From a virus, in the IMG/VR virus record IMGVR_UViG_3300030419_001186, positions 1 through 34,535 of that record: a stretch of 34,535 nt of DNA, one strand, 5' to 3'. The position numbers and the translations under genes are program-made. A model generated the notes under the pieces. The model ran no database searches, was not told where the DNA came from, and saw only the letters and a list, made by a program, of their open reading frames with translations. Numbering within the stretch: the stretch's first letter is position 1; the number at the start of each line of letters is the position of its first letter. Positions 10,081 to 34,135 of this stretch are shown piece by piece.

Positions 10081-10527
10081 ATGGCACTATACGGAAAAAC
10101 TTCAACAAAGCAGGCTAAATATGAGGCCATCTCAGCCCCTTTTCAACAGCTTAGGGGTTTAAAGTGGAATTATCTGCCTAAACACCTTTCTAATCCGTAT
10201 ATGAACTCCTCTACGGGTAGAGATTTAATAATGTCACAGGTAAATCAACTACTTTTGACCGCTAAAGGGGAAAGGGTGATGCTCCCAGACTTCGGAACAT
10301 CTATTAAAAACTTACTTTTCGAGCCTTTGAGTAGCGATTTGGTTGCTTTAGCAGCCGAAGAGGTACAATCTGCTATAGATAAGTACATACCTTCTATTAA
10401 TTTGTTAAAACTTAGTATATCTAAAAATGAAAACATGTACGGTTTCGGACTTCCTGGGCTACAAGTTTATCTTTTAGTATCTTTGAAGGCTTCTTCTGAA
10501 GTATTGAATATAAAGGTTAAGATATGA
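10081..10527 (+). CDS. 25: Baseplate wedge protein gp25 (GPW/gp25 family)
   Basis: 148 residues, close to T4 gp25 (132). The family signature is clear: a helix leading to L-L-L-T-A-K-G-E-R, then P-D-F-G-T-S-I-K-N-L-L-F-E-P-L-S around residues 68-85, followed by a helix containing A-A-E-E-V-Q-S-A-I-D-K-Y. gp25 nucleates sheath assembly on the baseplate and shares a fold with sheath subunits. It belongs to the conserved wedge core with the following gp6 and gp7-like genes. The stop overlaps the gp6 start (ATGA). The upstream ribosome binding site is weak, so expression may depend on coupling with the preceding gene one base away. Confidence 0.93.
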   Translation: MALYGKTSTKQAKYEAISAPFQQLRGLKWNYLPKHLSNPYMNSSTGRDLIMSQVNQLLLTAKGERVMLPDFGTSIKNLLFEPLSSDLVALAAEEVQSAIDKYIPSINLLKLSISKNENMYGFGLPGLQVYLLVSLKASSEVLNIKVKI

Positions 10528-12134
10528 GTGATCCATACGCAAGCAGGACGGTGCCTTTCACTAATGTAGCTTCTGATTATCAGAAACTTGCTGCTATCCC
10601 AGATTCGTTAAAAGAAAATTATATTGATTATGCTTCTAGTGATTTTATTACTTTAAGAAATGCTTTATTAGCCTATATGGAATCGGTATACCCTACTGAT
10701 TACAATAATTTTGCTGAGTCAGATTTAGGCATGATGCTTGTTGAGTTAATTGCTTACATGGGATCGGTGATGTCGTTAAAATCGGATATGTTAGCTAATG
10801 AAAACTTCCTTTCAACCTCCAAGAATATCAATAGCGTTAGAAAACTGTTTGATCTTGTTGGCATTTCTTTAAAAGGACCGACATCAGCGCAAGCCGCCGT
10901 AGATATATCTGTAGATAATATAACTTCATTAGATAATACGTTAGTTTTATCTCCTTCTGAGAGGGTAGTAAGTGTTATAGCACCTCAAGACGGGGAAGCT
11001 TTGACCTATACAGTATACAGAGTTGAAGATGGTAAGGTGGATAATATAAATAATACTGCTAGTGTTTCATTTACCTCCTCCGTTGATAGTTCTTCCACTG
11101 GAACTTATAGTGACGCAGTATTACTTGAAGGAGCTTTTGGTGTGCAATCAGGAACCTTCTCTGATATTGGTATATTTAAAGAAATATCTTTAGATGACAA
11201 GCCCGTTATTCAGAATAGCGTAGAGGTATTAGTAACTTCTACTAATACCTCTGCGAATGGTGTATATAGGCAAGTAGATAATATTTTTCAAGCTTCTTCA
11301 TTGGAGGATAGAGTCTTCCAGGTGGTGTACTCGGATGATTATTCAGCCAGGATTATTTTCGGGGATGGTAGCAATGGCATAGCCCCTCCTCCGCAATCCC
11401 AATATACTGTAACTTATAGAGTAGGAGGAGGCACTAGAGGTAATACTCCTAATTCTTATGTTAATGCTGTAGGTACAGGGACGTATGGAGCCGCTTCTAC
11501 AGGGATTAGATTCTCTCAAACCACTCTAGCCACAGGAGGGGCAGATGCAGAAAGTATAGACCACGCTAAAAGGTACGGACCTCTTTACTTTAGGACTCAA
11601 GATAGGATAGTTTCTTTAGATGATTATATTGCCTTTGCTAACTCCTTTACCTCCCCTGTAGGCACTACAGGAAAAGCTACTGCGGTAACCAGAAAAGCTT
11701 ACTCGTCTGCTAATATTATTGATTTATATCTTTTAGAAAAGGCTTCTAATAATCAGTATCAAAAAGCATCTTTAAGTTTTAAAGATGCTTTATTAACTCA
11801 ATTAGAGTCTAAGAAGATGTTAACCGATGAGGTTGTTCTTGTAGATGGTTTAATTAGAACTTTGGATTTAATAGTAAGTATTAATATAAGTAAGAGGTTT
11901 GAAGGGACTGAGGGAGTTATAACGTCAAGAGTCTCAGATAGAGTTTTAAAGTACTTTATGAACGATAACTGGAACTTTGGTGATCCTTTAGTAGTAGCGG
12001 ACCTTAATCGGGAGATTTTTGAGACAGACGATGTGTTATTTTCTTCTATAGACAATTTAGACGGTACAATACATGTAGAGTTTAATGAAATTATACAGCT
12101 AAACAACATAGATATCAGTGTTAACTTAATATAA
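10524..12134 (+). CDS. 6: Baseplate wedge protein gp6 (Baseplate_J-like)
   Basis: 536 residues. The N-terminal signature (about residues 55-105) contains N-F-A-E-S-D-L-G-M-M-L-V-E-L-I-A-Y-M, then N-E-N-F-L-S-T-S-K and V-R-K-L-F-D-L-V-G-I, as in gp6/gpJ. The middle contains I-I-F-G-D-G-S-N-G-I-A-P and V-T-Y-R-V-G-G-G-T-R-G-N, the conserved FGDG...G and yR.GGG.rGN motifs of the family. gp6 forms the inner ring that links wedges and switches shape on contraction. It is flanked by gp25 (ATGA overlap) and the gp7-like gene (TAATG overlap), the standard core order. T4 gp6 is longer (660 aa). Confidence 0.92.
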   Translation: MSDPYASRTVPFTNVASDYQKLAAIPDSLKENYIDYASSDFITLRNALLAYMESVYPTDYNNFAESDLGMMLVELIAYMGSVMSLKSDMLANENFLSTSKNINSVRKLFDLVGISLKGPTSAQAAVDISVDNITSLDNTLVLSPSERVVSVIAPQDGEALTYTVYRVEDGKVDNINNTASVSFTSSVDSSSTGTYSDAVLLEGAFGVQSGTFSDIGIFKEISLDDKPVIQNSVEVLVTSTNTSANGVYRQVDNIFQASSLEDRVFQVVYSDDYSARIIFGDGSNGIAPPPQSQYTVTYRVGGGTRGNTPNSYVNAVGTGTYGAASTGIRFSQTTLATGGADAESIDHAKRYGPLYFRTQDRIVSLDDYIAFANSFTSPVGTTGKATAVTRKAYSSANIIDLYLLEKASNNQYQKASLSFKDALLTQLESKKMLTDEVVLVDGLIRTLDLIVSINISKRFEGTEGVITSRVSDRVLKYFMNDNWNFGDPLVVADLNREIFETDDVLFSSIDNLDGTIHVEFNEIIQLNNIDISVNLI

Positions 12135-18861: not shown

Positions 18862-20735
18862 TAGGTAAGTTTAAACTTAAGAAGGTTAATAACTTCACTG
18901 GAAAAGAAGAGGTAGTATTTTCGGAAGAGAATCAGCTTACTGAAGGTATCAGGCACTCTATGGTAAACGTGCTAACGGGTACTGGTTCTAAGAATTCGGA
19001 TGATTTCTCTTTTAAATACTTCCAACTAGGAGATCAAAAGTACGACTTATCTACTTTTGATATATCTGCTGATGTAACCTCTTCGGCATTTTCTTCTTAT
19101 TTTTGGACTCTTAAAAGTCCTTTAACTAAGGCCGATTATGGTAAGAATTCTAGATCTTACTTAACACAAAAACCTTCTTATATCTTAGGATCTGTATTAC
19201 CGTCGGGTTTAGGTAATACTAAGGTTATAGATAACTTTGTACAACCTCCAGATGTAAGAACTGTTTTAAATGAGTACTCTAATACGATAGCTCCCCAGGT
19301 AGATGGGGATGATTTGAGTGATAATTACTATAACTCTCACCTTTCTAGTGTATGGTCCTGTGGATGTGCTAATGATTTTATGAGTCAGCCTGAACACTTC
19401 GGATGGAACCCTCTTCCTGGTGTTCAGGATTTAACTATGTCGGGTCCTGATTTTAAAACTCCTACTTGGAAGTACTCTTACTCCACCAGGGATGATTTCT
19501 TACTACCTGACGGGAGTGTAGCTATAGACTCTATATGCGTAAGAAGTAATCATAGTTACATTTATAAAGGTCCAGTAGCTGATCATGTCCAGAATGAGCC
19601 TATGAATTATTGGGCAAAGCTGAGAACAAATCAAACGATTTCTGCATACTTCGCTGGAACGCACTACGTATCTTCCGTTGGAACTAACCCTTGGCCTCAT
19701 GCAGACACATCTGCTGTTTCGGGGACTAACCTTACTGGAAGGTTAAGTATTTATAATAGATCGGCTGGAGCTTTAATAGGGGGTGAGGCTGGTCAAAATA
19801 GCATTGATTTCTTATATAGATATAATTACGATACAGGACATGGAGCTAGTGCATGGCCTCAAACATACACTCCTTGCGCTATTTCAGTTTCTAGTGGGTG
19901 GCAATCTCAAGAAAATAAAGATGGAGATGCTTTAACTCAATTCAGTTCCGTATACGGTTTAACTTCTGAGTCGGACTATGGCGTTGTGTCTGCAAACATT
20001 CATAACCGTTATGGGGCGTTATATACTTATAGTGATCATTTAAATAATTACTCTTCTATGAATGGGGCAGGAGCCACATACATAAATACAGCGGATGCGG
20101 GATTCGGACCTAGCGGTAACTTTTATAGAGTATCTTTAACATGGGGCGCTGCACCCAGTAAGATGGTTAATTATTATAAAAGGGATAGCTCAGGGACTGT
20201 GTATGACGGTAATGTTTTGGTAGAAATGATGAGGCCCTGTGTATCTGCTTTGTCGGGGATACATCATGGGGCTAGTTCTATAGGAGGGTCTGGGCATATT
20301 TACCCAGGGTCTGACCCTAGGCAGGAAGGACATATAAGCTTTGTTCAATGGGATTGGGATACTTCAGCTACTCCCGTACAGAATGTGCATGGGGAGCAGT
20401 CGTATTATCTGACAAGCTCTCAAGAGTTTGTAGTTATTCCTGATGAAAATACAACTAGATTAAATTCTAATACTACTAATGTTAGATTAGAAGTAGATGA
20501 AGGTTTAGCTAATTCTAAAACTTTAAGAGAGGTGGGTTTGTATATTAAAAATCCAGGAGGTTTCGGTGTCGATACCCCATTCTTAGGGGCATATAAGAGA
20601 TTTCCTTGTGATATTAATAAAACTGATCAATTTTCTTACATTATAGATTGGGAATTTTCTTTCCAAGATAACTCTGTGGAACATTCACAGCAAACTGATC
20701 CTGTTGATGAATGTAATTCTTCTAACTCCAATTAG
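18858..20735 (+). CDS. Tail fibre/adhesin B: shared shell with large insert
   Basis: 625 residues from ATG 18858, chosen over the upstream TTG 18840 because GGAAGGTGAAG ends about 6 bases before this ATG and the ATG overlaps the preceding TGA (ATGA). The N-terminal ~75 residues (E-E-V-V-F-S-E-E-N, F-Q-L-G-D) and residues about 545-600 (L-R-E-V-G-L-Y-I-K-N-P-G-G, L-G-A-Y-K-R-F, I-I-D-W-E-F-S-F) match the 194-aa protein encoded next. The ~430-residue insert is beta-rich, with Y-R-V-S-L-T-W and V-E-M-M-R-P-C-V strands near 424-455 suggesting a CBM-like jelly roll. A short acidic Cys/Ser/Asn tail follows the shell. Function as a host-contact protein is inferred. Confidence 0.68.
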   Translation: MIGKFKLKKVNNFTGKEEVVFSEENQLTEGIRHSMVNVLTGTGSKNSDDFSFKYFQLGDQKYDLSTFDISADVTSSAFSSYFWTLKSPLTKADYGKNSRSYLTQKPSYILGSVLPSGLGNTKVIDNFVQPPDVRTVLNEYSNTIAPQVDGDDLSDNYYNSHLSSVWSCGCANDFMSQPEHFGWNPLPGVQDLTMSGPDFKTPTWKYSYSTRDDFLLPDGSVAIDSICVRSNHSYIYKGPVADHVQNEPMNYWAKLRTNQTISAYFAGTHYVSSVGTNPWPHADTSAVSGTNLTGRLSIYNRSAGALIGGEAGQNSIDFLYRYNYDTGHGASAWPQTYTPCAISVSSGWQSQENKDGDALTQFSSVYGLTSESDYGVVSANIHNRYGALYTYSDHLNNYSSMNGAGATYINTADAGFGPSGNFYRVSLTWGAAPSKMVNYYKRDSSGTVYDGNVLVEMMRPCVSALSGIHHGASSIGGSGHIYPGSDPRQEGHISFVQWDWDTSATPVQNVHGEQSYYLTSSQEFVVIPDENTTRLNSNTTNVRLEVDEGLANSKTLREVGLYIKNPGGFGVDTPFLGAYKRFPCDINKTDQFSYIIDWEFSFQDNSVEHSQQTDPVDECNSSNSN

Positions 20736-20774: not shown

Positions 20775-21359
20775 ATGAGCAACAAGCAATACATGAATCC
20801 TACTGGTCATTTACAAATCTTCAAAGTCTATGAAGATGGTGAGGAAGAGTTATATTTTGAGGACGCCAATATAATTACGTCTGGGATGGGTGTAGGGTTT
20901 TCTCATTTATTTGCAGGAAGTGGCTCTGATAATATTATTGATTATCAGATTAGAAACTTTTTAGTAGGTTCTGGAGGTACGGATGCTACTGATTACGGGG
21001 TTTCTACTTATAAGCTAAAGGCTGGGGTTAGCGGTGAAGCTGATTGGGGGCCCGACACTTCTTTAATTACTGAATTTCTTTTCCCTATAGAAAATGGTGT
21101 CGTGATGGCTACGGAGATTCCACTTGCAAGAATAAGATTCAGTAATATACAAAAAGTAACAAATACTTCAGTAAGATATACTTTAGTATTAGACAGAGGT
21201 ACTTTAAATGGGTCATATATAAATGAGGTAGGCTTGTTTATGAGAAATCCTAGAGGCAATACAGCTATTAATCCCATCCTAGTAGCATATAGACTTTTTA
21301 CAGAAATAACAAAGACTAGTGATTTTAGTCTCATCTTTCGCTGGACATTACAATTCTAA
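20775..21359 (+). CDS. Adhesin C: minimal shell protein (194 aa)
   Basis: A short protein that appears to be the shared shell without an insert. Residues 10-75 carry L-Q-I-F-K-V-Y-E-D-G-E-E-E-L-Y-F-E-D-A-N and R-N-F-L-V-G-S-G, matching the start of adhesins A and B. Residues about 149-194 carry I-N-E-V-G-L-F-M-R-N-P-R-G, L-V-A-Y-R-L-F and F-S-L-I-F-R-W-T-L-Q-F, matching their ends. This suggests a compact baseplate-docking domain, from which A and B differ by large insertions. It might act as an adaptor or as a structural filler at a shared docking site. AGAGG precedes the ATG by about 13 bases. Its stop overlaps the next start (TAATG). Confidence 0.7.
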   Translation: MSNKQYMNPTGHLQIFKVYEDGEEELYFEDANIITSGMGVGFSHLFAGSGSDNIIDYQIRNFLVGSGGTDATDYGVSTYKLKAGVSGEADWGPDTSLITEFLFPIENGVVMATEIPLARIRFSNIQKVTNTSVRYTLVLDRGTLNGSYINEVGLFMRNPRGNTAINPILVAYRLFTEITKTSDFSLIFRWTLQF

Positions 21360-24300
21360 TGGCATTTAATTCAGACGATCTCTACACAGTTTCTGGCGGG
21401 GCCAATATATTTAACTATTGGAACCCTTTTGTAACCAAGCACGACTCCTCCTCCTTCTACAACTGGGAGCAAGACAACCTTCCTCTGTATGATGTAGAGG
21501 AAAGGACGTATTATTTATGGGAGAAGTTTGGGTATCCCTTGTCTGGGGTGCCCTCAATGGCTCTCCTAGTATCGTCTACAATCCCTACAGATACGGCTGC
21601 AAGTGCTAATATTTTTACCTCCGTATCAGCGGCTATAGAATCTCTGCCCGAAATAATTAGAATGCCTACCCTTATTGAGGTTGCTGTTAGTGGTCACATA
21701 GGTTCAATTGAGCTTAATAATATTAAATGTGAGGATGATGGGGCTTTAGAGATTATTAATAGAGGTTTTGCTCCTTTAACTCAGTGGCCTGAAATATCGG
21801 GAACTATATCTGATAATCAAACTTTCTATTTAGATGATGATATGGATGCTAAAAGGTTTATACCTAGCCAAGTGTCAGGTCATGGGATTGTAAGTTATAT
21901 TAATGATTCTAGTGCGGTTGCGTTTTCTTCTACGACAGCAGGGTTGTGGGATTTTACGGTCTCTGAAAAAACATTCTACAGGGTGTTAGCAATGCCTGTG
22001 TCTCAAACATCCTCTCTAACCGCTCGACCATCCAAGCCTTCTTATTCCTATCCTGGCGTTTCTAACTTTACTAATAGTATTACCAAGTCTGGAAATACTT
22101 TAAATATGTCTCCTATCTGCACCGCTAGTTTCCCTGGAATTAAAGGGCCTGTAGATGGCACTATAGATCTTTTAGATGTATCTACTTTTAATGATCTAAG
22201 TTCAGCCTACGTAGTTAGGCCACAGCCTGTGGATCACAACCAGATGCTTAATGGCGTTATTACTGCCAATAGGGTTTCTAAGATTAAGTTACAGAATTGT
22301 GATGGTCCTATCTATGTTCGAGGCTTCATCGTAGACGGTTATGATGACGTTGCTACTGCCTATGAGACCTCTGTGGGTATTGGGGTTTATAACTCTACTG
22401 ATGTCTCTATCGAAGACTGCGGAGCTATGAGGTGTACGCAGGCGGGATATGAGGTAGATAACTCTAAAGTAAAACTAAGAAGAAGGAACGTGGCTTCTAG
22501 AAACTATGATACTTCTTTAAGAGCTACTTCAGGTTATGAGTCTTATGGATTTAAAATATCTAACAGTGAGGTTGAGTATAAAGTAGATAACAAGTATTCC
22601 GTTGGAATGGCTGCTCTTTTAGCGTCTCATTTCCACACTTACGGAATATATTTAAATAACTCCAAGTTTTTTGGCGGTGATATATCCCCTGAGTTGGTAG
22701 ACGCCGTAACTCATTCTACTCTTAGAACTGTAAGTCCCTTAGAGGTTGGTTATAATAATTATGGTATATATTCTGACTCTTCTAAGTACGATATTAAAGG
22801 TCTAACAGATGTTTATAACAATGAAACTAATATAAAAGCTAATTCCTCTGAGTTCCGTACAGGATCTTATCTGGTAGATAATGCTAACCAAAACGGGGTA
22901 GACTTTAGTAACTCTAGATTTATTATAAACACTGATTTTAATAAGTACCTTAGAAATACGGGTCAAGACGTATGGGGAACCGCTGCTAACGATAGGTTTA
23001 GAAAGTTCGGTTATGGTACTATGTCTGAAAACGCTAGACATATGCTCCTTAATAATGGGTCGTACTACGGACCTGACTATCCTGTTGAATTATCTGCTTT
23101 TGATAATGATGTATTCTATACTGGAACTAGCGCCTTGGCTGACAATTATAACAGAGTTGTATTTGCGGAAGGTTGGGGTATGAATGGCCTTAGTGGAAAT
23201 GCAGCTTTGATGCCTTCCATAGTTCTTAATAACTCTAGGGCAGAAATGATAGGTGCTTATATACAGCAGCCATCTAATGGGGCACATACTAAAGGCGCGG
23301 CTATAAATGTTAACAACAACTCTGTTTGCAAGTTTATAGGATATTCGGCTGATTATGGAGTTACTCTTATAAAAGGTATAGGGTCTATAGCAGCGCAGTC
23401 GAAAGTTGCGGCTGTCGTAGCTGATAATAATTCTGAAATTTACTTTACAGGCCCTACTGCTATTCTACAGTACGGCATAGGTCTTCTTGCTGATAATAAC
23501 TCTGTTATAAAGGCTTGCCCAGTATTATCTGAAGATAATACTAGTTATGATACATCAAATGCTTGGGGGGCCTATATGGGCGCTGTTAGCCCTGTTATGG
23601 AGATTCATGCTACCAGGGCGTGTGCCGTAGCTAACAACGGTTCCGAGTTAAGGTTTGAGGATTTGGGGGACTATAGAAATTTCTGGCCGATAACTGAGAC
23701 TTCTTCTGCGGATTATACACCCTTAGGGACCGTAAGTTCGCTGCCTGGTTCTTCTATAATCACTTATGGAGCTTTACAATTCTACCCCAACCCTCCTCTG
23801 GGAGATATAGGGCGAGGTACTTTGGATGGCGCTAGTAATTTTAGAACCCCTACTGCTGGGGGCGCTTTCGCTCCTGCCTACGATAACTCCTTGAGTTGCC
23901 TCAGATTACTATATGACAACTCGTATGCAACTGGAACTATGGGCGATGAGGTTAAAGCTAGTGCCAGTAGAGGAGGTGTGTGTGTTATATCTACGGGTGA
24001 TAGTGAGGTATTCTTAAGAAATGTTCACTTCCCCTGTGGGCAAGTTAACGGTGATCAATCGTTCTATGATCCCTCTGCTAGTACTGCTGGCTGTAATGAT
24101 TTGTTTATGTGGAATGTTCAAGACACTTCTAGATTAAATGCTTCTTATAGTACTGTTAGTGGCCTCTACCCTTCCTTGGCTGGATACAGTGGACCTAAAG
24201 CGGTTTTCGAAACAGGTACAGGTGTGGCTGCTTTTGGTGCATGGTCAGGAACACCCGACACTACTGTAGTGTCTGTATTAGACCACTTCGGGAGCGGTGT

Positions 24301-25009
24301 TAATTTAAGTGCTACTACTTACCTCAGTGGCTTAGTCATGAGTGCTATACAGTCGGCCCGTGACAAGGATAGTGCTGCTGGTGTAGGTAGTATGACTACT
24401 TCCGCCTACGGGCCAAGCAGTTACGAAAATAGAGGACCCTTCAGATTATTCTTCCCTGTTAAACCTGAAGCTAGATTTTTATGTTATTTAAGTGCTGCTT
24501 CAGCTACAGCAGCAGTTCCAGACACCAGACCTTATCAGCACTTATCTCAAGGGTATGCTTTATCTGGCGCATGTTCGGCACTCGTACATTTGAGTAGTAC
24601 ATGGAATAATTTAATAACCCCGATAAACGATGAGCTTGATAGGGTTGAAGCACCAAAACTTACTACGAGTGGTTATTATTTCCCAGACTCTATAAAGGCA
24701 AAAGGGCATTTTTACGAATTTAGTGGTACAAATTACGGCTATGCGACTAATGAGATTACTACTGTTGGAATGCTTCCTGACTTTAATCCTGCTCAAGTAA
24801 TATTGGATGAGTCTTTTGCTAACACTTTTAATAATGCTAAACATTGTAGTACTAATTTTAGTGGACGTAAGCAGCTAGTTACCATATACAAACCTCTTAC
24901 TACTTCCGCAGGAGAAGGTTATATAGGAACGGAAGGGTCCACAGCCTTTGGCTTTACAGGGCACGGCTTACGTTCGGTTAATATATTTGATTTTGAAAGG
25001 GAAATCTAA
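21359..25009 (+). CDS. Long tail fibre/spike with right-handed beta-helix
   Basis: 1216 residues. Residues 33-56 hold an attachment-type motif (F-Y-N-W-E-Q-D-N-L-P-L-Y-D-V-E-E-R-T) shared with the next gene product. Residues about 340-760 are a repeating ladder in which N-N-S or N-S turns recur roughly every 20-45 residues (near 345, 367, 400, 432, 472, 493, 517, 564, 623, 652, 688, 712 and 759), as expected for stacked coils of a right-handed beta-helix with an Asn/Ser turn. The C-terminal ~450 residues are Ser/Gly/Thr-rich and beta-like, possibly receptor-binding or trimerising. No glycosidase or lyase catalytic motif is identifiable. No clear SD is seen; the start overlaps the preceding stop. 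Confidence 0.72.
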   Translation: MAFNSDDLYTVSGGANIFNYWNPFVTKHDSSSFYNWEQDNLPLYDVEERTYYLWEKFGYPLSGVPSMALLVSSTIPTDTAASANIFTSVSAAIESLPEIIRMPTLIEVAVSGHIGSIELNNIKCEDDGALEIINRGFAPLTQWPEISGTISDNQTFYLDDDMDAKRFIPSQVSGHGIVSYINDSSAVAFSSTTAGLWDFTVSEKTFYRVLAMPVSQTSSLTARPSKPSYSYPGVSNFTNSITKSGNTLNMSPICTASFPGIKGPVDGTIDLLDVSTFNDLSSAYVVRPQPVDHNQMLNGVITANRVSKIKLQNCDGPIYVRGFIVDGYDDVATAYETSVGIGVYNSTDVSIEDCGAMRCTQAGYEVDNSKVKLRRRNVASRNYDTSLRATSGYESYGFKISNSEVEYKVDNKYSVGMAALLASHFHTYGIYLNNSKFFGGDISPELVDAVTHSTLRTVSPLEVGYNNYGIYSDSSKYDIKGLTDVYNNETNIKANSSEFRTGSYLVDNANQNGVDFSNSRFIINTDFNKYLRNTGQDVWGTAANDRFRKFGYGTMSENARHMLLNNGSYYGPDYPVELSAFDNDVFYTGTSALADNYNRVVFAEGWGMNGLSGNAALMPSIVLNNSRAEMIGAYIQQPSNGAHTKGAAINVNNNSVCKFIGYSADYGVTLIKGIGSIAAQSKVAAVVADNNSEIYFTGPTAILQYGIGLLADNNSVIKACPVLSEDNTSYDTSNAWGAYMGAVSPVMEIHATRACAVANNGSELRFEDLGDYRNFWPITETSSADYTPLGTVSSLPGSSIITYGALQFYPNPPLGDIGRGTLDGASNFRTPTAGGAFAPAYDNSLSCLRLLYDNSYATGTMGDEVKASASRGGVCVISTGDSEVFLRNVHFPCGQVNGDQSFYDPSASTAGCNDLFMWNVQDTSRLNASYSTVSGLYPSLAGYSGPKAVFETGTGVAAFGAWSGTPDTTVVSVLDHFGSGVNLSATTYLSGLVMSAIQSARDKDSAAGVGSMTTSAYGPSSYENRGPFRLFFPVKPEARFLCYLSAASATAAVPDTRPYQHLSQGYALSGACSALVHLSSTWNNLITPINDELDRVEAPKLTTSGYYFPDSIKAKGHFYEFSGTNYGYATNEITTVGMLPDFNPAQVILDESFANTFNNAKHCSTNFSGRKQLVTIYKPLTTSAGEGYIGTEGSTAFGFTGHGLRSVNIFDFEREI

Positions 25010-27447
25010 TGGCAAGTGATGATTTTTACGCTGATGGTCAAGGTGGGGGCGAGGTAAGTTTTAGACAAAGCTCTCATCAATTTACAGAACCTATAAGATT
25101 ATTTAAATCCAATGATCCTTACTATTGGGAAGTGGATAATGTACCTCTTCAACAATTGCAGGAGAATGTATTATGGCTTAAAGATCAAATAGCGGGAGAT
25201 CCCTCCTTGGATGGTGTGGACAGGTCTGAGATTCTTGAATTAAAGCCTGATGCTCCTGGAGATAGTAGATTAGTTACGGTACGTCCTGGTAGGTTTAGTG
25301 GACGAGTTAATGATGCTTATGGTACTGGAATATCCACTTTAGCTCTTAAGGGTATTGCGAGCGTTTCTGGCATTACTTATGATCAGGTACAGATAACTAC
25401 TCCTGATGATACTATTAAATCTTTAGCAGGGGCAATAACTACTAAGATTTTAGCGGATAACGGTTTGTACGACTTAGTACAACACAACGTAACGGCTCCA
25501 GCGGGTTACCCTAATACAAGCTGGGTTAGCGAGTATACTGCTTTTATTCAAAATAGACAAGACGCTGATGGTACTATATATGATTTACAGAAAAACAAGT
25601 TGGCTTTATGGAAGCAGGCTACTACTGTACAAAACTACGGTGGAGATCCAGCCAGTGAGGTAGATCTTCAGCAACTTGCCGTAGAGTTTACCAGAGTATA
25701 TGGTGCCCCGTTTAGAACTGCAATAGTAGATGTCCCTTCTGAATTATCAATAAACATACCTGCTTTTGATGATTCTGATTATACTAATCAAACTACTTAT
25801 GTACCTTCTGTTCGTGTAGATTTATTATTTGTATATACTAAGCCTATAGATGCTCAATCTACGACTATTCTACAGCCTAATGGACTTGCTGGTACTACTC
25901 TAAACTCACCTCAACTAGGTTTAGTTAAGGGGGCTGGAGTAATAGCTCTGAATGTTAAGCCTGATGGAAGTGTGTGGTCCGATGAAACTCTAGACGAAGA
26001 ATTCTTTGATGATAATGATTATCAGGATTATAAAGAGGAGGCTAATTTACGGTTCCAACCTTCTGGGAATTTTGATTCTTTAGGTAATAGGCAAACCACT
26101 TCCGTTATATCTGATTTAAGTCAGAACACTATAGGGGTTGCTAATACTTTTGGAAATTTCCCAAGCCCTGACGATTTAATGAATGCTGCTCCTTATATTA
26201 CGGCTGGAGTATCCAAGAGTAGTCTTAAAATGATAGGCCAGTCTATACTTCCTATAGCCTATATATTCACCAAAAAAGGCAAAGCTGTCATAGAAAGATC
26301 TGATATTTTTGATATAAGACCATTCTTCCGTACAGCAGAGCTTACATATAATGAACGTGCTGGTTTAGCTGCTGCTAACCCACCTACTTCTTTAGCTAAC
26401 CCCGTAGTTAGTAAGTATGAACTTGCTGACACTACTCAAAAACTGAGAACCCATGTAATTGAGTCCATACCTCCTCCTCCAGAGTACCCTCGACCAGTAG
26501 GTTCGGGTTATGTATTTGGAGGTATCTTTTTTGGACCCGAGGGGGTTCTAGCTAGAGCAAGTCTATCTAATCCATCAAACCCTACTGGCCTAAAAAGCAT
26601 CTCTGATAACAAAACCGCTGCACAGCAGGAAATTACCCAATGGCTTAAAGATACTGGTCAGATACCTCCTATGGATAATTACCTTGTTCCCATCTATCCC
26701 GATTGGGAAGTAGCTCCTTGGGCCGCACCAAAAGGAAATGCTGGTCTCTATAGAAATGATTACTTTAATTTCTGGTATACCGAGTCAGATAGAGATAATT
26801 ATGTCTATAGTAAAGATAGTGACTATATTAAAAATTGGGGAACTGTAAATAAAAATATGTGGTCTAATGATGGTAGAACTGGAAACATGAGTTTCTATGT
26901 TAAGAGGCGTGTTGATTTAGATATGACTAAGGTAGCGGACTGGATGGAGCCAGGGAATTACCACGTTCGTTTGAGTCTTGTTAACTGCGCTCTAGGGTCC
27001 TCAGAGGGTAAGTTTATTAATGTTTCTAGAGAACACGAAGATCAGTCGATATGGGAACAATATACAGGTCTTTATGTAGAAAAATATGAAGACCATTTTA
27101 ATATAATTTGTACTTGGGTTGTAGGTGATCCTTTTAGTGGAACATCTAATAACGGACCTAATGGGGCTTCTAATGGTAAAACTGGGGGTTCCCCTGAAGC
27201 CAGGAGAACGAGCGAAAGATGGTCTTCTATATCTGTGACAAGTGAAGATACTATACTCGGTCAAACAGGCTCTAAAACCGCTTCCTGGGATAACCTAACT
27301 CAAGATAATATGGCTAGAAATGGAATGTGTACTTACCCTACTGTTCATTTTGAAATAATAGGATACCCTTCCACCTATGCAGAAGGTATAAAAACTGACT
27401 GGAGTGCTTCTGGTGGTGGGTCTTACGTAACCTTAACTGATACTTAA
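25009..27447 (+). CDS. Baseplate/fibre structural protein with W-E-x-D-N motif
   Basis: 812 residues. Residues about 35-60 read Y-Y-W-E-V-D-N-V-P-L-Q-Q-L-Q-E-N, aligning with the N-terminal motif of the preceding beta-helix protein. They are followed by a beta-domain containing V-T-V-R-P-G-R-F-S-G-R-V-N-D. A Pro-rich patch (E-S-I-P-P-P-P-E-Y-P-R-P) sits near residue 485. The C-terminal ~200 residues are Trp, Tyr and Asn-rich and beta-like. It lacks the Asn ladder of its neighbour, so it is not a second beta-helix. AGGG precedes the ATG, which overlaps the previous stop (TAATG). A role as a baseplate-proximal fibre or fibre connector is inferred from the shared motif and location. No known family is recognised with confidence. 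Confidence 0.6.
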   Translation: MASDDFYADGQGGGEVSFRQSSHQFTEPIRLFKSNDPYYWEVDNVPLQQLQENVLWLKDQIAGDPSLDGVDRSEILELKPDAPGDSRLVTVRPGRFSGRVNDAYGTGISTLALKGIASVSGITYDQVQITTPDDTIKSLAGAITTKILADNGLYDLVQHNVTAPAGYPNTSWVSEYTAFIQNRQDADGTIYDLQKNKLALWKQATTVQNYGGDPASEVDLQQLAVEFTRVYGAPFRTAIVDVPSELSINIPAFDDSDYTNQTTYVPSVRVDLLFVYTKPIDAQSTTILQPNGLAGTTLNSPQLGLVKGAGVIALNVKPDGSVWSDETLDEEFFDDNDYQDYKEEANLRFQPSGNFDSLGNRQTTSVISDLSQNTIGVANTFGNFPSPDDLMNAAPYITAGVSKSSLKMIGQSILPIAYIFTKKGKAVIERSDIFDIRPFFRTAELTYNERAGLAAANPPTSLANPVVSKYELADTTQKLRTHVIESIPPPPEYPRPVGSGYVFGGIFFGPEGVLARASLSNPSNPTGLKSISDNKTAAQQEITQWLKDTGQIPPMDNYLVPIYPDWEVAPWAAPKGNAGLYRNDYFNFWYTESDRDNYVYSKDSDYIKNWGTVNKNMWSNDGRTGNMSFYVKRRVDLDMTKVADWMEPGNYHVRLSLVNCALGSSEGKFINVSREHEDQSIWEQYTGLYVEKYEDHFNIICTWVVGDPFSGTSNNGPNGASNGKTGGSPEARRTSERWSSISVTSEDTILGQTGSKTASWDNLTQDNMARNGMCTYPTVHFEIIGYPSTYAEGIKTDWSASGGGSYVTLTDT

Positions 27448-27462: not shown

Positions 27463-30400
27463 ATGGCGAATTACATCACATGCTGGCTGCGCGATCCTGG
27501 AGAGCTTCCGAGCGATAGTGGCCCCCCTGGAGGAGGGGGGTCTGGGGGAGGTCCACCTGATGATGATGACGGGGACTCCTGTGATGGGCAACTACTTTAT
27601 TTTTGCTGTGGGGATCCTAAGTTAAACTGGGATACAGTTGATGATTGTATCCCTACAGAGTTCGATAAGGATGCACTCACTGTAGGATGCACTCAAGAGC
27701 CTCCTGATATTTATCAAGGATGTTATTACGCAGAGAATGACGGTAAAACTAGATGCGAAAATGAGTGTAAGCCTCCTTATTCAACCTGTATAGGTGTTAC
27801 TTGTGATGAGTCTTCTAAAGAGTGTGGAGACGCTCCAATAGCTACAGATAAAGAGTTATACGATGCTAATGCTTGTGGGCAAGGGGTTGAGCCTGGTTGT
27901 GATTTAACTTACCCTTGTACTTATGGACCCACCACTTATTATGAGACTGTAGATGCGTGTGAGGTTGCTGATAATGAGTGTGAGGAGCCCCCAGGCTGCA
28001 ATGCTTGGAAGTGTAAAGAGCCTGGGTGCGGTCCAAATGGTGGTGAGTGCGAAGCGGTTACTTTAAGTGAGGCCCAGATGGATCAGTGCGCCTGGATGGT
28101 GGATCCTAATGATCCTAATATGGGCTGTTACGGGACCGATATGGGTTCTACTGGAGAGACTTGTAAGGTAGACAATGAGACTGTTTGGGAATATGCAGGG
28201 AAGCAAGATTGTGAGCAATCAGATGAGTGTACTTTAGATCTTTCTTGTACTAAGTGGACCTGTAATGTAGAGGGTACGGATTCAGGAACTTGTACGTCCT
28301 CCATAGTAACTGAAGATTGCGAAGGTGATGGAAGTGATTGTGGGGCTGGAGTTTATAATGGACCTGATGGCTATGGAACTGAAGATGAATGTAAGCAAGA
28401 CCCTTTATGTAATCCGTGCCCTCCTGGGTGGTATTGTGATAAATCCAGCGGAGGTGATGGTACAGGCACTTGCCTGGAAGGAGATGAGGAATCTTGCCCT
28501 GGTACATATACCAGCGATGGGTGTACTTATAGCGATGGGTGCTTTCCTGATGAACCTGAATGTGAAAAGTCTGGTTGTGAGTGTAAACCCTTTGTAGGGT
28601 GTGGGTTGGCATTAAAGAATGGAAATACTGATTGCGTAACTTGTGATCCTATCAGATATGATAAAGATAACGATAAATGTATCTACCAAGAAGATGACGA
28701 TCCTACTGAGTATTGGATAGGTGAGGATGGAAAAGGTATAACCAAACAAGCATTCTTTGAAGGCCCTTATGATACGTGGAGATTTGATAAAGATACCGCT
28801 GGTGGGAGTAGTAAATGTGAGGAATGGTGTAAGGTAGGTAATGATACTTGTTGGGCGTGTGAAGACTCTACATGTTGGGAATGTGTAGAAAAAACAATGG
28901 AAGGACAGCGAACCGCTACAGCTAAAATATGCGAGGAGGTTCCTTCTGAGGGGGACGAATGCGTTCCTAAGGAGACTGGAGGCATTACTGATGGAAAAGA
29001 TTGTATACTTCTTCAAAAAGCTGATGGAGATTTAAGATGTATTGGATTGGATGGGGCGTGTAAGACTAAAATTCAGTGCGAGACTGATGGACTTTGTGTA
29101 GGGGCTAGTTGCCCAGAGTATGATGAAAAAGCTGACTGCGAATCTTTATGCTCTTTTGAGGATTTTAATCCTCCCGCTGGGTTTAATTTAGGAGGTTCTC
29201 TGGGATTCTTTAGAATTTATGGAAGCAATTTAAATAATCCTGTTTACCAAAAAGATATTAATAATACTAGACTAAGAAATAACTCAAAGTTTTTAGGAGT
29301 TAGTAGAGGGTCTTTACGTCCTGATATCTTTAAGGAAACGATCCACATAGGAATTAAGGCGTGTGTAGATATTATAAGTAAAACAATTCCATTTAGCGAT
29401 AAGCCTTTTACGGATTTAAGCAACAGGAATATAGAAAAGAGCCTACAAGATGATTTTTTACTTAAGTTAAATACCGCAATACTAGCTAACGGAAAGCCTT
29501 TAAAGAGTTTAATAATACCTTCTTTAAGGAATCTTATTATATCAGGTAGATTGGATGAGTTTAGTAAAGAAGATGTAGTGAGTATAGCTGATCACATTAT
29601 ACACTTACAAGGTAATGATGAGTATTCCGATACTAGAAGCTTATTTAATTTACGTGATGTAAATCAGATATCTAGCGAGGCTAAAGCTATAGAGCTAGTT
29701 ACAAAACATGTATGGCCTTTAGTTAGTACGTCCTACGATGATAGAACTGCTGAAAGGATGAAGTATTGGAAGACTTTAGCTCCAGACCTTAATAAGCATC
29801 TCACCGTAAGAACCTCCGATGGTACGACCCTCCCCCTTTATTATAATATTAATGATGAAGTAGTCATAGACGGTAGCGGCATAATGACCTTAAGCCCTGG
29901 AGATTTACAGAGGTATACCAAGTCTGATGGGAGTATAGGTGAGATAAGTATTCAAAGCCTGATAGATAGAGCGGGTATATTAAATATTGAAACACTTCAG
30001 CGTGTCATGGCTATATTGGGTACTACTTATGATTTTAAAATGACCGTAACTACAGACGCTTCTGCAAGAATAGATGAGCGTTATGGAGTTACTAAAGAAA
30101 GAAAGAATTTCTACATGCTGACTTTACAGACTAGTAGCATAGAAGATCTTCCTAGAGATAATTCATTTGTCGCTAAGACTAAAGCCACTTATACTTATGA
30201 AACTAGTGGGCCTGTTAGAAATCAACATGTGGCTGCCGCACCGTATCCTTATTTAGAGTTATATGTAGATGCACAAGATCCTATCTTTAATTATATAACT
30301 AATGATGGTGTGGTAGAGGTAGAGTCTAAAGATTTTGTTTTCGATATATTTAATGATTTTAGCGCCCTTCCCGTAATCCCCAGAAGAGGACCAGTTCCGA

Positions 30401-31023
30401 CTATCGTTTTATATCCTTCGGATAAAACTTCCAATGTGGTAGCTCATAAAATATCAAGATATAAGAGTTATGGAGTAAGAGAACTAGATTTCATCATTAA
30501 TCCTAATCCAGGGGTTTCTGATATATGGCAGCCAGTTTATTTAAAGGAATCATTGGCGTACCCTGATAAGGGTATTAGTCAGACGAGAGGAACCACTCAA
30601 GATATAACCTTCTCAGTAAATACCGATGCTATAAATAATCAAGATTTATACGTAAGTGGTGGTCCTGTATTACCTAGATTAAAGTTTGGGGTTAGGTACG
30701 CTTATTCTGTAGGTAAAGAACTCGTAGACGATTATCAGGTTCCAGCAGACAAGATCGTAAGTTGGTATGAGGTATACGAAAGAATGCCTATACCAATGAT
30801 GAAGTTTATGCATAAAGAATGTTTAGATTTTAAAAACTTTGAATCTCTTTTCGCTATAGGGAAGCCTTCATCCGACGATTCCGTAAATGCTATGTACCCT
30901 AAGTTACGAGAAGTTAGATCTCAGAATTGGCTAGGCACTACCGCTCCTAATCCAGATCCAGTTAGGACTTATTTAGAAGTAAAACCTGACCACACACCCG
31001 TTCCAGTGGAGCCTTTAGATTAA
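27463..31023 (+). CDS. Cysteine-rich baseplate/fibre protein (1186 aa)
   Basis: A two-part protein. Residues 20-40 are a Gly/Pro/Asp linker. Residues 7-563 contain about 62 cysteines, with C-x4-C pairs (C-I-G-V-T-C, C-N-A-W-K-C, C-T-K-W-T-C), C-P-P-G-W-Y-C, and a C-W-A-C/C-W-E-C cluster near 466-477. Residues from about 567 onward contain only two more cysteines and look like an ordinary phage structural region with a helical part (620-800) and a beta-rich part. The cysteine density suggests tandem disulfide-knotted or metal-binding modules. No signal peptide is present, so folding would occur in the cytoplasm or after release. I do not recognise the family of either half. The start lacks a strong SD. 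It closes the fibre cluster just before the PAAR region. Confidence 0.7.
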   Translation: MANYITCWLRDPGELPSDSGPPGGGGSGGGPPDDDDGDSCDGQLLYFCCGDPKLNWDTVDDCIPTEFDKDALTVGCTQEPPDIYQGCYYAENDGKTRCENECKPPYSTCIGVTCDESSKECGDAPIATDKELYDANACGQGVEPGCDLTYPCTYGPTTYYETVDACEVADNECEEPPGCNAWKCKEPGCGPNGGECEAVTLSEAQMDQCAWMVDPNDPNMGCYGTDMGSTGETCKVDNETVWEYAGKQDCEQSDECTLDLSCTKWTCNVEGTDSGTCTSSIVTEDCEGDGSDCGAGVYNGPDGYGTEDECKQDPLCNPCPPGWYCDKSSGGDGTGTCLEGDEESCPGTYTSDGCTYSDGCFPDEPECEKSGCECKPFVGCGLALKNGNTDCVTCDPIRYDKDNDKCIYQEDDDPTEYWIGEDGKGITKQAFFEGPYDTWRFDKDTAGGSSKCEEWCKVGNDTCWACEDSTCWECVEKTMEGQRTATAKICEEVPSEGDECVPKETGGITDGKDCILLQKADGDLRCIGLDGACKTKIQCETDGLCVGASCPEYDEKADCESLCSFEDFNPPAGFNLGGSLGFFRIYGSNLNNPVYQKDINNTRLRNNSKFLGVSRGSLRPDIFKETIHIGIKACVDIISKTIPFSDKPFTDLSNRNIEKSLQDDFLLKLNTAILANGKPLKSLIIPSLRNLIISGRLDEFSKEDVVSIADHIIHLQGNDEYSDTRSLFNLRDVNQISSEAKAIELVTKHVWPLVSTSYDDRTAERMKYWKTLAPDLNKHLTVRTSDGTTLPLYYNINDEVVIDGSGIMTLSPGDLQRYTKSDGSIGEISIQSLIDRAGILNIETLQRVMAILGTTYDFKMTVTTDASARIDERYGVTKERKNFYMLTLQTSSIEDLPRDNSFVAKTKATYTYETSGPVRNQHVAAAPYPYLELYVDAQDPIFNYITNDGVVEVESKDFVFDIFNDFSALPVIPRRGPVPTIVLYPSDKTSNVVAHKISRYKSYGVRELDFIINPNPGVSDIWQPVYLKESLAYPDKGISQTRGTTQDITFSVNTDAINNQDLYVSGGPVLPRLKFGVRYAYSVGKELVDDYQVPADKIVSWYEVYERMPIPMMKFMHKECLDFKNFESLFAIGKPSSDDSVNAMYPKLREVRSQNWLGTTAPNPDPVRTYLEVKPDHTPVPVEPLD
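27778..28428 (+). repeat. Degenerate Cys-rich protein repeats (~60-80 aa units)
   Basis: Within the cysteine-rich protein, residues about 106-176, 177-259 and 260-322 each begin with C-x4-C and end with an aromatic, 5-8 residues, then C-E/K and another C a few residues on (for example Y-E-T-V-D-A-C-E, W-E-Y-A-G-K-Q-D-C-E and Y-G-T-E-D-E-C-K). Spacing varies, so this is a diverged repeat visible at protein level and not an exact DNA repeat. Similar C-E...C endings recur later, near residues 538 and 559. Confidence 0.5.
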
Positions 31024-31045: not shown

Positions 31046-31231
31046 ATGGTGGAGGGTGAGATAATAGTATATAATAATTATAACGATATACCTGATAAGA
31101 TAGACCATGTTATTAGTTTCCTTCCTCATTACCCTAAAGGACCCCATACAGAAGAGGAGCATGAAATGATTTCTAAATTTGGAGAAAAGTTACAAGATTT
31201 ATTAAGGAGAGAAAATACATGCCAGCAGTAA
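31046..31231 (+). CDS. Hypothetical 61-aa acidic protein upstream of PAAR
   Basis: A small protein with I-I-V-Y-N-N-Y-N-D-I-P-D-K-I-D-H-V-I-S-F followed by P-H-T-E-E-E-H-E-M and a charged helix, predicted as one strand pair plus one helix. I chose ATG 31046; the frame is also open from a TTG at 31025 (68 aa). Neither start has an ideal SD; AAGGG lies 13 bases before the ATG. The gene overlaps the PAAR gene by 13 bases, which argues for a co-translated partner of the spike tip. No function is known to me. Confidence 0.6.
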   Translation: MVEGEIIVYNNYNDIPDKIDHVISFLPHYPKGPHTEEEHEMISKFGEKLQDLLRRENTCQQ

Positions 31232-31515
31232 CAAGAAAAGGTGATAAAGATGTGACACATTGTAGTACACCTGTGAGGGAGGGAGCATCTCCAGATGTAT
31301 ATGCAAATGGAAAAAGAATTTCTAGAGAAGGTGATACTAATAGTGTTCACGAACTTCCAGGAAGCCCTTGCCCTTCCCATGCAGCGCCTATCACTCAAGG
31401 AAGCACAACTGTATTTATTAATGGGAAGGGGTGTGGTCGAGTTGGGGATGCTATAACTGGGTGTACTGAAGTTGCTGAAGGGTCTCCTGATGTATTTGCT
31501 GGCCCCTATGCTTAA
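31219..31515 (+). CDS. PAAR-domain spike tip protein (gp5.4-like)
   Basis: 98 residues, the same size as T4 gp5.4 (97). It starts M-P-A-V-T-R-K-G-D, as PAAR proteins usually do, and contains H-C near residues 14-15, P-C-P-S-H near 51-55 and C-G/G-C pairs later, offering the usual His/Cys zinc ligands. It has two G-S/G-A-x-x-V-x-x-N-G-K-type repeats (V-Y-A-N-G-K-R-I-S-R-E-G-D and V-F-I-N-G-K-G-C-G-R-V-G-D). PAAR proteins form the sharp zinc-bearing cone on the spike. Here it should cap the gp5-like protein encoded 24 kb upstream. An AAGGAG site precedes the start. Confidence 0.93.
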   Translation: MPAVTRKGDKDVTHCSTPVREGASPDVYANGKRISREGDTNSVHELPGSPCPSHAAPITQGSTTVFINGKGCGRVGDAITGCTEVAEGSPDVFAGPYA

Positions 31516-31606: not shown

Positions 31607-32038
31607 ATGAAAGTTAATGTAACGGAAGATTTTGTAAGCGAGCTTCTTGAGTCCCGTGGTTGGGATAAGGCTGGCATTACTATTGACGAATCGAAGAAAG
31701 AGAAGAAGACTGGTGGCGGTCCTGAAGTCGAAGGTGCTAAAGAAGTAGGCAAAAGTGCTTATGATAATGAAAAAAATAGCCCTGAAGGCATTACTGAGGA
31801 CGAAGAGAAGGCTCTTGCTTGCCCTCTTTGTGAGTCCGCTTTAGAAGAGGAGCTTAGTGATGAAGCCCTTGAGGAACATGCCGCCTCCATGCTTGGTGTT
31901 TTCACCGAAGCGGGACTGATCTCGGAAGACATCGAGGTTGATCAAGAGTTCATTATCGAAAACGCTAATGAGATTCTTGATATTCTTTCTGAGGCTGGTT
32001 TGATCGTTGAGGATACTAACGAAGAAGAAGAGAAGTAG
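31607..32038 (+). CDS. Putative acidic prohead core protein (gp67 position)
   Basis: 143 residues, strongly acidic (Glu and Asp throughout, ending E-E-E-E-K), predicted helical, with a single C-P-L-C at 72-75. It opens the head-core operon, where T4 has gene 67, which also encodes a small acidic internal core protein. A possible gp21-type cleavage site (L/I-x-E before A/G) lies at L-S-E/A, residues 127-130. Codon use is shifted toward CTT, GAG, GTC and CGT compared with the fibre genes, as expected for a highly expressed product. GGAG lies 8 bases before the ATG. The function is inferred from charge and location; no sequence family was recognised. Confidence 0.6.
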   Translation: MKVNVTEDFVSELLESRGWDKAGITIDESKKEKKTGGGPEVEGAKEVGKSAYDNEKNSPEGITEDEEKALACPLCESALEEELSDEALEEHAASMLGVFTEAGLISEDIEVDQEFIIENANEILDILSEAGLIVEDTNEEEEK

Positions 32039-32905: not shown

Positions 32906-34135
32906 ATGCAACTGTTAGAAGACGTTTTTATTGTAGAAAATTTACAAATTCTTACCGAAGGTAAGACTGGTCCTATGAGGATTAGAGGTTGTTTCCAAAG
33001 AGCGGACGAAGAGAATAACAATAAGCGCGTCTATGGTAAGCCTTTACTAGAGAGAGAAATTAACAAACTAGCGGAAGCTATTACTGAGCGCAGATTGATG
33101 GGTGAACTCGACCACCCTCAGCACGACTCAGTTAAACTTTCTAACGTCTCTCACCTTATTACAGGTCTTAGCATGAAAGGTAATGAGGTTATCGGTGAGG
33201 CTGAGATCCTTGACACTCCCTCTGGCAAGGTAGCTCAAGCTCTTATCCGTGGTGGGGTCAAGGTAGGAATCTCCTCAAGAGGTATGGGTACTGTATCTGA
33301 GGATGTTCACGGTAAGCGTCACGTAAACGAGGACTTCAGATTAATTACCTGGGATCTTGTTGCTGACCCCTCAACCAGAGGAGCTTACCCTGGTCTTACG
33401 GAGTCCACTCAAATCCAAGAGATTATTGATAAGGTATACCCAGAAGCTCAAAAGGTTAAGAATTTTACCACTCTTTTAAAAGAGAGTTTAAATGAGGGGG
33501 AGGCTAAGAGTTCTGAGGATTTACATCGTGCAGGTAAACCGCGTGAAGAGGTAGAGGCAAGAGAGAAAAGACAACAGGCTCGTTCAAGAGCTATAGAACG
33601 TAAAGCTCTACAATCAACGAGGAAAAGAGAAAGCTCTTCCACTAGCCTTGCTGATCTTGTAAGAAGTAAGTTATATGAGATAGCATCGGCCCCAACCCCA
33701 TTGGCCCAAGCGCGAGCACAGCGATTGGAGATGGAGAAGAGGATGCGTAAGAAAGAAGGAATAGCAAAAACCTTTACGCCAAAGAGTAAGTCAGACGAAG
33801 ATAAACCCAAAAGAGAAGACGCTTCCACTAGCCTTGCTGATCTTGTAAGAAATAGATTAGATGAATTAAAAAGATCTCATAAAAAAACTAAACAAAAAGC
33901 GGCTGCAAGAAAGGTGAGGCAGGCTCGTCGCGTTCCAGGTGTGCCCCGTGATCCTCAGTTTGATACAAGAAAGCCTAGAACACAAAAAAGAAGAGAGGCT
34001 AGGCTCTCTCAGCACATCAAATTGTCTAGGAAGAGGACTAGGGTAGAGCAGGAGAGTAGGCGCAGAGAGTATTACGCAGATCCTCAAAGTTCCCAGGCTA
34101 GTCCTACCGACCGCGAGACACCTATGAACAAATAA
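32906..34135 (+). CDS. 21: Prohead core protease gp21-like with basic C-terminal extension
   Basis: 409 residues against 212 in T4. Residues about 20-165 match the gp21 (S80) protease: N-K-R-V-Y at 39-43, G-E-L-D-H-P with the likely catalytic His70, G-I-S-S-R-G-M-G with the likely catalytic Ser123/124, and W-D-L-V-A-D-P-S. It should cut scaffold, core and capsid proteins during prohead maturation, and also itself: L-N-E/G at 195-198 fits the L/I-x-E cleavage rule and separates the protease from the tail. Residues 200-409 are highly charged and basic. They contain S-T-S-L-A-D-L-V-R twice (246-254 and 307-315), encoded by a 30-base direct repeat. Codon use also shifts toward AGA/AAA in the tail. 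AAGGG precedes the ATG. Confidence 0.9.
   Translation: MQLLEDVFIVENLQILTEGKTGPMRIRGCFQRADEENNNKRVYGKPLLEREINKLAEAITERRLMGELDHPQHDSVKLSNVSHLITGLSMKGNEVIGEAEILDTPSGKVAQALIRGGVKVGISSRGMGTVSEDVHGKRHVNEDFRLITWDLVADPSTRGAYPGLTESTQIQEIIDKVYPEAQKVKNFTTLLKESLNEGEAKSSEDLHRAGKPREEVEAREKRQQARSRAIERKALQSTRKRESSSTSLADLVRSKLYEIASAPTPLAQARAQRLEMEKRMRKKEGIAKTFTPKSKSDEDKPKREDASTSLADLVRNRLDELKRSHKKTKQKAAARKVRQARRVPGVPRDPQFDTRKPRTQKRREARLSQHIKLSRKRTRVEQESRRREYYADPQSSQASPTDRETPMNK
33636..33665 (+). repeat. 30-bp direct repeat, copy 1 (protease tail)
   Basis: An identical 30-base stretch occurs here and at 33822-33851, in the same reading frame, 186 bases apart. It encodes the S-T-S-L-A-D-L-V-R segment. The flanks (aaaagagaa before, a helix-coding stretch after) are also similar, which points to an internal segment duplication. 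Confidence 0.85.
33822..33851 (+). repeat. 30-bp direct repeat, copy 2 (protease tail)
   Basis: Second copy of the 30-base repeat at 33636-33665. The residues that follow diverge (R-S-K-L-Y-E-I after copy 1, R-N-R-L-D-E-L after copy 2) but keep the same helical pattern. Confidence 0.85.

Follow-up and report, generated by a model that had tools for sequence, protein, structure and literature searches.

The window analysed here is a 34,535-nucleotide stretch of viral DNA (34.5 kb) taken from an IMG/VR record. The presence of gp25-like and gp6-like wedge genes at 10081..12134 places the locus in a T4-like baseplate cassette. The cassette also encodes a Tail_P2_I/TIGR02242 protein and several large proteins without known families ahead of the gene of interest, w27463, which is followed by a PAAR protein gene, small genes and a gp21-like prohead protease gene. 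The main features are:

10081..12134, plus strand: gp25-like and gp6-like baseplate wedge genes (phrog_261, E 1.1e-14; phrog_219, E 1.1e-30)
21359..25009, plus strand: w21359, a large protein of 1216 aa with orthologues in relatives, the predicted partner of w27463
25009..27447, plus strand: w25009, the upstream neighbour of 812 aa and a marker of the cassette (orthologues at 28-61% identity)
27463..31023, plus strand: w27463, an open reading frame for a putative modular appendage protein of 1186 aa, with syntenic orthologues in dozens of IMG/VR contigs
31219..31515, plus strand: PAAR protein downstream of w27463 (PF05488, E 1.2e-11; phrog_281, E 4.9e-23)
32906..34135, plus strand: prohead core protease (gp21-like) at the cassette end (PF03420, E 7.9e-24; phrog_207, E 2e-49)

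The gp25-like, gp6-like and gp21-like genes resemble those of the baseplate and prohead cassette of T4 and the cyanomyoviruses. Unlike in that cassette, the products of w21359, w25009 and w27463 have no PHROG or PDB sequence match, and profiles of the two neighbours of w27463 likewise found no match in PDB. w21359 displays a weak beta-helix similarity (Pfam Beta_helix, E 0.0019) that lies below the curated cut-off. Elsewhere in the cassette, the products of 18840-20735 and 20775-21359 apparently share a homologous domain, a single reading frame matching both in some relatives, and in locus L028 (10004-15295) the w25009 gene is doubled in tandem (884 and 878 aa). Near the prohead protease, the product of a small gene (31607-32038) carries a CPLC motif (Cys72, Cys75) that is kept in 34 of 36 relatives and may contribute one half of a zinc site to a prohead-core-like protein.

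The w27463 reading frame starts with ATG, contains no internal stops and encodes 64 Cys residues. An earlier note on this DNA had counted about 62 Cys within residues 7-563 and two further on; a recount on the 1186-aa frame gives exactly these numbers, the two outliers being Cys634 and Cys1120. The position at which that note ended the Cys-rich part, 29160, fits as well, given that the conserved C-terminal domain starts at about 29221 (residue 587). Residues 1-566 are 11% Cys, rich in Gly and Asp, and acidic (123 Asp and Glu, 37 Lys and Arg). As the note had also indicated, Cys is scarce in the neighbours: the other predicted structural reading frames of the window contain 0-1.4% Cys, with the exception of the 98-aa PAAR protein, which has four. 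Between the window and the orthologue of locus L021, 52 of the 62 Cys columns are kept (84%) against 29% of the non-Cys residues, so that the Cys richness of w27463 is neither chance nor a coding artefact.

The view that this protein is unlike any standard part was sustained by the searches. No match to w27463 was found in Pfam (E up to 1), PHROGs, NCBIfam, PDB sequences or GenBank phages, and a PHROG search for known phage tail families with the full-length protein returned no profile match. A single-sequence search of IMG/VR and a tblastn search of GenBank phages revealed no relative. Neither EGF-like, TIL-like nor other Pfam Cys-rich domains were detected in the Cys-rich part at E up to 1, nor EGF- or TIL-like domains in 35 orthologues at E up to 0.1. 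In the literature searched, mainly papers outside subscription journals, nothing relevant on Cys-rich or Kunitz-like phage tail parts was found.

Relatives of w27463 were reached solely through the neighbouring genes. In the corresponding position of a contig with a 49% gp6 relative lies a gene whose product shares its C-terminal half with w27463 and again has a Cys-rich N-terminal half. Alignment of the upstream gene w25009 yielded a first set of 62 contigs; a third cassette gene, likewise aligned, added two partly overlapping sets of 80 loci. On contigs that extend past the w25009 homologue, a w27463 orthologue usually comes next. Judged by this gene neighbourhood, w27463 is probably a tail or baseplate-region protein of uncultivated T4-like viruses that form a large family. 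The family is common in metagenomes, and one case is linked to Prochlorococcus: the virus cassette is found on a 130,604-bp contig (QCKN01000003.1, locus L084) from the Prochlorococcus sp. AG-409-P03 single-cell genome, with a w27463 orthologue devoid of the Cys-rich arm, and is nearly identical to IMG/VR contig 3300030333_006551. This single genome is an association, which suggests but does not prove a cyanobacterial host. In L128/L129, L203 and L209 the appendage gene is gone and the next cassette gene adjoins w25009; the gene is therefore dispensable in some members of the family.

Comparison of the orthologues divides w27463 into three parts, listed here with the codon of a residue in w21359 that is discussed below:

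27463..27510, plus strand: N-terminal anchor peptide MANYITCWLRDPGELP with Cys7 (codon 27481-27483, TGC), a near-invariant alignment column
27580..29151, plus strand: hypervariable Cys-rich arm, residues 40-563, with 61 Cys, from the orthologue comparison
29221..31020, plus strand: conserved C-terminal domain, residues 587-1186, from a 36-sequence alignment
24092..24094, plus strand: codon TGT of Cys912 of w21359, the predicted partner of w27463 Cys7 by co-occurrence with the anchor Cys

The N-terminal peptide, of the form FxCxxxxPG with Cys near residue 7-13, is present in nearly all orthologues, and 47 of 49 orthologue clusters have a Cys within the first 23 residues. Among orthologues, the entire N-terminal part is 33 to 1235 residues long and contains 0 to 100 Cys beyond the anchor. 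By these alignments, the most constrained Cys of the family is the lone anchor Cys, outside the Cys-rich module, and the module itself is a hypervariable insertion, missing from some relatives. In L051 (12391-13455) a PKD-like (Ig-like) domain fills the variable slot instead of the Cys-rich arm, and in L065 (12428-16054) the anchor peptide is followed by a long threonine-rich tract and then a small Cys cluster. The C-terminal domain of about 600 aa is common to all orthologues and was modelled confidently by AlphaFold2 (pLDDT 88.9, pTM 0.89). The model gave no Foldseek match with E < 0.1 in PDB and BFVD and a best Z of just 2.1 in VIA-align, which leaves room for a known fold.

Taken together, w27463 may be a three-part appendage protein of the tail or baseplate region. 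The anchor peptide would be attached through a disulfide between Cys7 and Cys912 of w21359, as suggested by cross-gene covariation. The arm would consist of small disulfide-rich domains in which the remaining 61 Cys pair mainly within the chain, a reading that draws on count parity and paired gains. Its variability prompts the guess that it serves as a compact acidic spacer or presentation arm. The third part would be the conserved domain of about 600 aa, with its confident predicted fold and without a detected relative. Phage tails assemble in the reducing cytoplasm; both kinds of disulfide are therefore expected to close late or after lysis, and in oxic water they would both lock the appendage on and stiffen it. 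Part of the virus tail may thus be secured by bonds that are not expected to form until the virus has left the cell. This whole explanation, a Cys7-Cys912 tether together with a disulfide arm that closes late, is considered fairly probable on the sequence evidence. If it is true, the timing and place of phage virion oxidation become testable by ordinary biochemistry.

It is conceivable, at a clearly lower level of confidence, that the family finishes its tail outside the host, with oxidation in open water closing the interchain disulfide that locks the appendage to the baseplate and stapling the fast-evolving arm, built of a six-Cys domain not described before, in a redox-dependent maturation of the virion.

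The strongest competing proposal accepts the same chemistry and differs on function alone. The disulfide-rich arm would bind receptors or mediate surface adhesion and would vary with the host, its disulfides being mere scaffolding with no role in maturation. The extreme variability in length and sequence between conserved ends speaks for adhesion, as does the filling of the slot by a PKD-like domain in L051 and by Gly/Pro/Thr-rich linkers in others. However, the variable part is not at the C-terminus, where most phage fibres have theirs, the arm is almost missing in some relatives, and no carbohydrate-binding or adhesin family match was found. The chances of such a role are put a little short of even.

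The tether of the three-part appendage is supported by the co-occurrence of two Cys residues encoded by different genes. In a first scan of the conserved Cys of the neighbours, 59 of 61 sequences had Cys912 of w21359, and the only two without it were those that lack the anchor Cys. With the second set included, it occurs in all 64 distinct carriers of the anchor Cys and in none of four non-carriers: L056 and L076, without the N-terminal part; L095, with an N-terminal part but no anchor Cys; and L128, where the appendage gene is absent and PAAR directly follows w25009. Among 162 columns of w21359 conserved at 85% or more, only 912 was changed in all four non-carriers, and no tested column of w25009 was altered in every one of them. 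A third set of loci, retrieved once the rule had already been stated, contained Cys912 in 9/9 carriers and 0/2 non-carriers, the latter (L203 and L209, both without the appendage gene) having F and N at this position. Combined, the two Cys occur together in 73 of 73 loci and are both missing in six of six. Only these six non-carriers exist, and in five of them the loss extends beyond the anchor to the entire N-terminal part or the entire gene, L095 being the exception. In L194, which at first appeared to break the rule, the reading frame is split and the anchor Cys lies in its upstream piece, and Cys660 of w25009 was discarded as the tether partner, L038 having the anchor Cys without Cys660.

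A tree was built from 78 w21359 sequences from which column 912 had been removed. Parsimony on this tree counts five independent changes, each common to the anchor Cys and Cys912, and L209 groups with the carriers L211 and L212 with a support of 1.0. Moreover, carriers without any arm Cys (L064, L075, L148) retain Cys912, which therefore tracks the anchor Cys and not the arm. An interchain disulfide between the anchor Cys and Cys912 is predicted. Sequence comparison alone in this way predicts one specific covalent bond, naming the residue involved on each of the two proteins, and the pattern recurs in a later genome set. Covariation reveals an interaction and not its chemistry, and the residues that replace Cys at 912 are N, S, D and F; the pair could accordingly represent a non-covalent contact or a shared metal site. 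This is considered unlikely, as Cys is found on both sides in every carrier with no alternative residue pair seen, and Cys-tethered appendages are established in phage Milano.

To our knowledge, virion disulfides of tailed phages have been demonstrated structurally in few systems. In Agrobacterium phage Milano, disulfides cross-link the sheath and baseplate, Cys38, in the N-terminal region of the short tail fibre, is bonded to baseplate proteins, and contraction in vitro required a reductant (PMC10811340). The capsid of its relative, phage 7-7-1, is similar in kind (PMC12796354). The likeness to the present family lies in an N-terminal-region Cys that bonds, or is proposed to bond, an appendage to the tail in contractile-tailed phages (Cys38 in Milano, Cys7-Cys912 here), although the Milano disulfides have been seen structurally and the Cys7-Cys912 pair is known only through comparison of sequences. 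The distribution of Cys also differs: the structural proteins of Milano have a mean of 2.1% Cys, spread over many proteins (PMC10811340), whereas in the window Cys is concentrated in the one arm of w27463 (11%), the other predicted structural proteins are Cys-poor, and no general rise across structural proteins is seen, the other large reading frames containing 0-1.2% Cys.

Pairing within the arm is suggested by the Cys counts. Excluding the anchor Cys, a post hoc choice made with the counts already seen, the number of arm Cys is even in 34 of the 45 clusters that have any (one-sided p 0.0004 and two-sided p 0.0008 against 50:50, for clusters that are partly non-independent), and the neighbouring control genes are at about 50:50. 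Counts over whole N-terminal parts are mostly odd, a pattern accounted for by a single anchor Cys added to an even-numbered arm. Among close relatives the arm count changes by 2, 6, 12 or 24 Cys; between L021 and L068, once one-column alignment shifts are set aside, there is a single real gain of two Cys (46 and 65). In the first set, the even counts are 0 modulo 4 in 14 clusters and 2 modulo 4 in 10; this split favours pairs over Cys4 sites. The arm of the window itself, with 61 Cys, breaks the even rule, so that at least one of its Cys must be unpaired or bonded elsewhere; 11 of the 45 clusters are odd. Neither DsbA nor thioredoxin was found in 25 contigs of the family, which are fragments.

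The earlier note had offered disulfides and bound metal as two hypotheses for this part of the protein. The first has gained from the even counts and the two- and six-Cys gains, and the second has lost ground, with no excess of CxxC quartets in the arm. The predicted covalent tether to w21359 is in keeping with the first as well. A metal-binding module with Zn or Fe clusters, folding in the reducing cytoplasm and serving adhesion or storage, would be equally compatible with even counts, and a few CxxC or CxC motifs do occur in w27463 (CNPC, CVTC, CWAC, CWEC, CEC). However, His is absent from the 566 N-terminal residues, the Cys are mostly spaced by 5-8 residues, multiples of four are not favoured, and each of the canonical repeats described below has six Cys and, towards its C-terminal end, a predicted helix bearing CxxxC, in the manner of disulfide domains. 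Metal binding is for these reasons improbable, and pairing of the arm Cys as disulfides is the favoured interpretation of the sequences.

The repeats are clearest in L025 and L027, whose arms are built of tandem units of about 55 aa with the pattern CxxYxC..C..C..GxxYY..CxxxC and exactly six Cys in 24 of 24 clear copies. The fold predicted for the L025 repeat has a pLDDT of 91.4. Such repeats are predicted to form a family of disulfide-rich domains absent from Pfam, which expands and contracts by units of paired Cys. A divergent copy was located in the window:

27997..28230, plus strand: repeat copy, residues 179-256 of w27463 (iterated HMM, E 3e-7)

This copy keeps the frame C..W.C..C..C..C..C and has three extra Cys, nine in total; weaker copies lie at residues 106-170 and 262-313. 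Attempts to read the disulfide connectivity off repeats with fewer Cys gave ambiguous results and were abandoned.

Kunitz-type inhibitors resemble the repeat in its length, six Cys, strands and C-terminal helix with CxxxC. The structural similarity is weak: in VIA, the only PDB chains reaching Z >=2 with the repeat model were three, all Kunitz inhibitors (Z 3.1-3.6, rmsd 1.9-2.4, in a partial alignment over 38 residues). The Kunitz Cys pattern is C-x8-C-x15-C-x7-C-x12-C-x3-C, and that of the model sequence, C-x4-C-x6-C-x16-C-x20-C-x3-C, agrees with it only in the last C-x3-C. A Kunitz-like protease inhibitor that shields virions or acts on host proteases is very improbable, given the unlike spacing, the low Z, the lack of any Foldseek match for the model and the absence of Kunitz (PF00014) among the Pfam-A matches of 34 repeats up to E 1.

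A Cys-repeat protein near a gp6-like gene in a huge-phage record was also considered and set aside as unrelated to w27463 and not an orthologue. It is encoded on the minus strand at 23324-25348 of locus L011 (LR756511.1, 530000-575000, from a 595-kb uncultured phage record), and its 674 aa include 31 Cys and tandem PPSFDCISFCQ repeats of 11 aa each.
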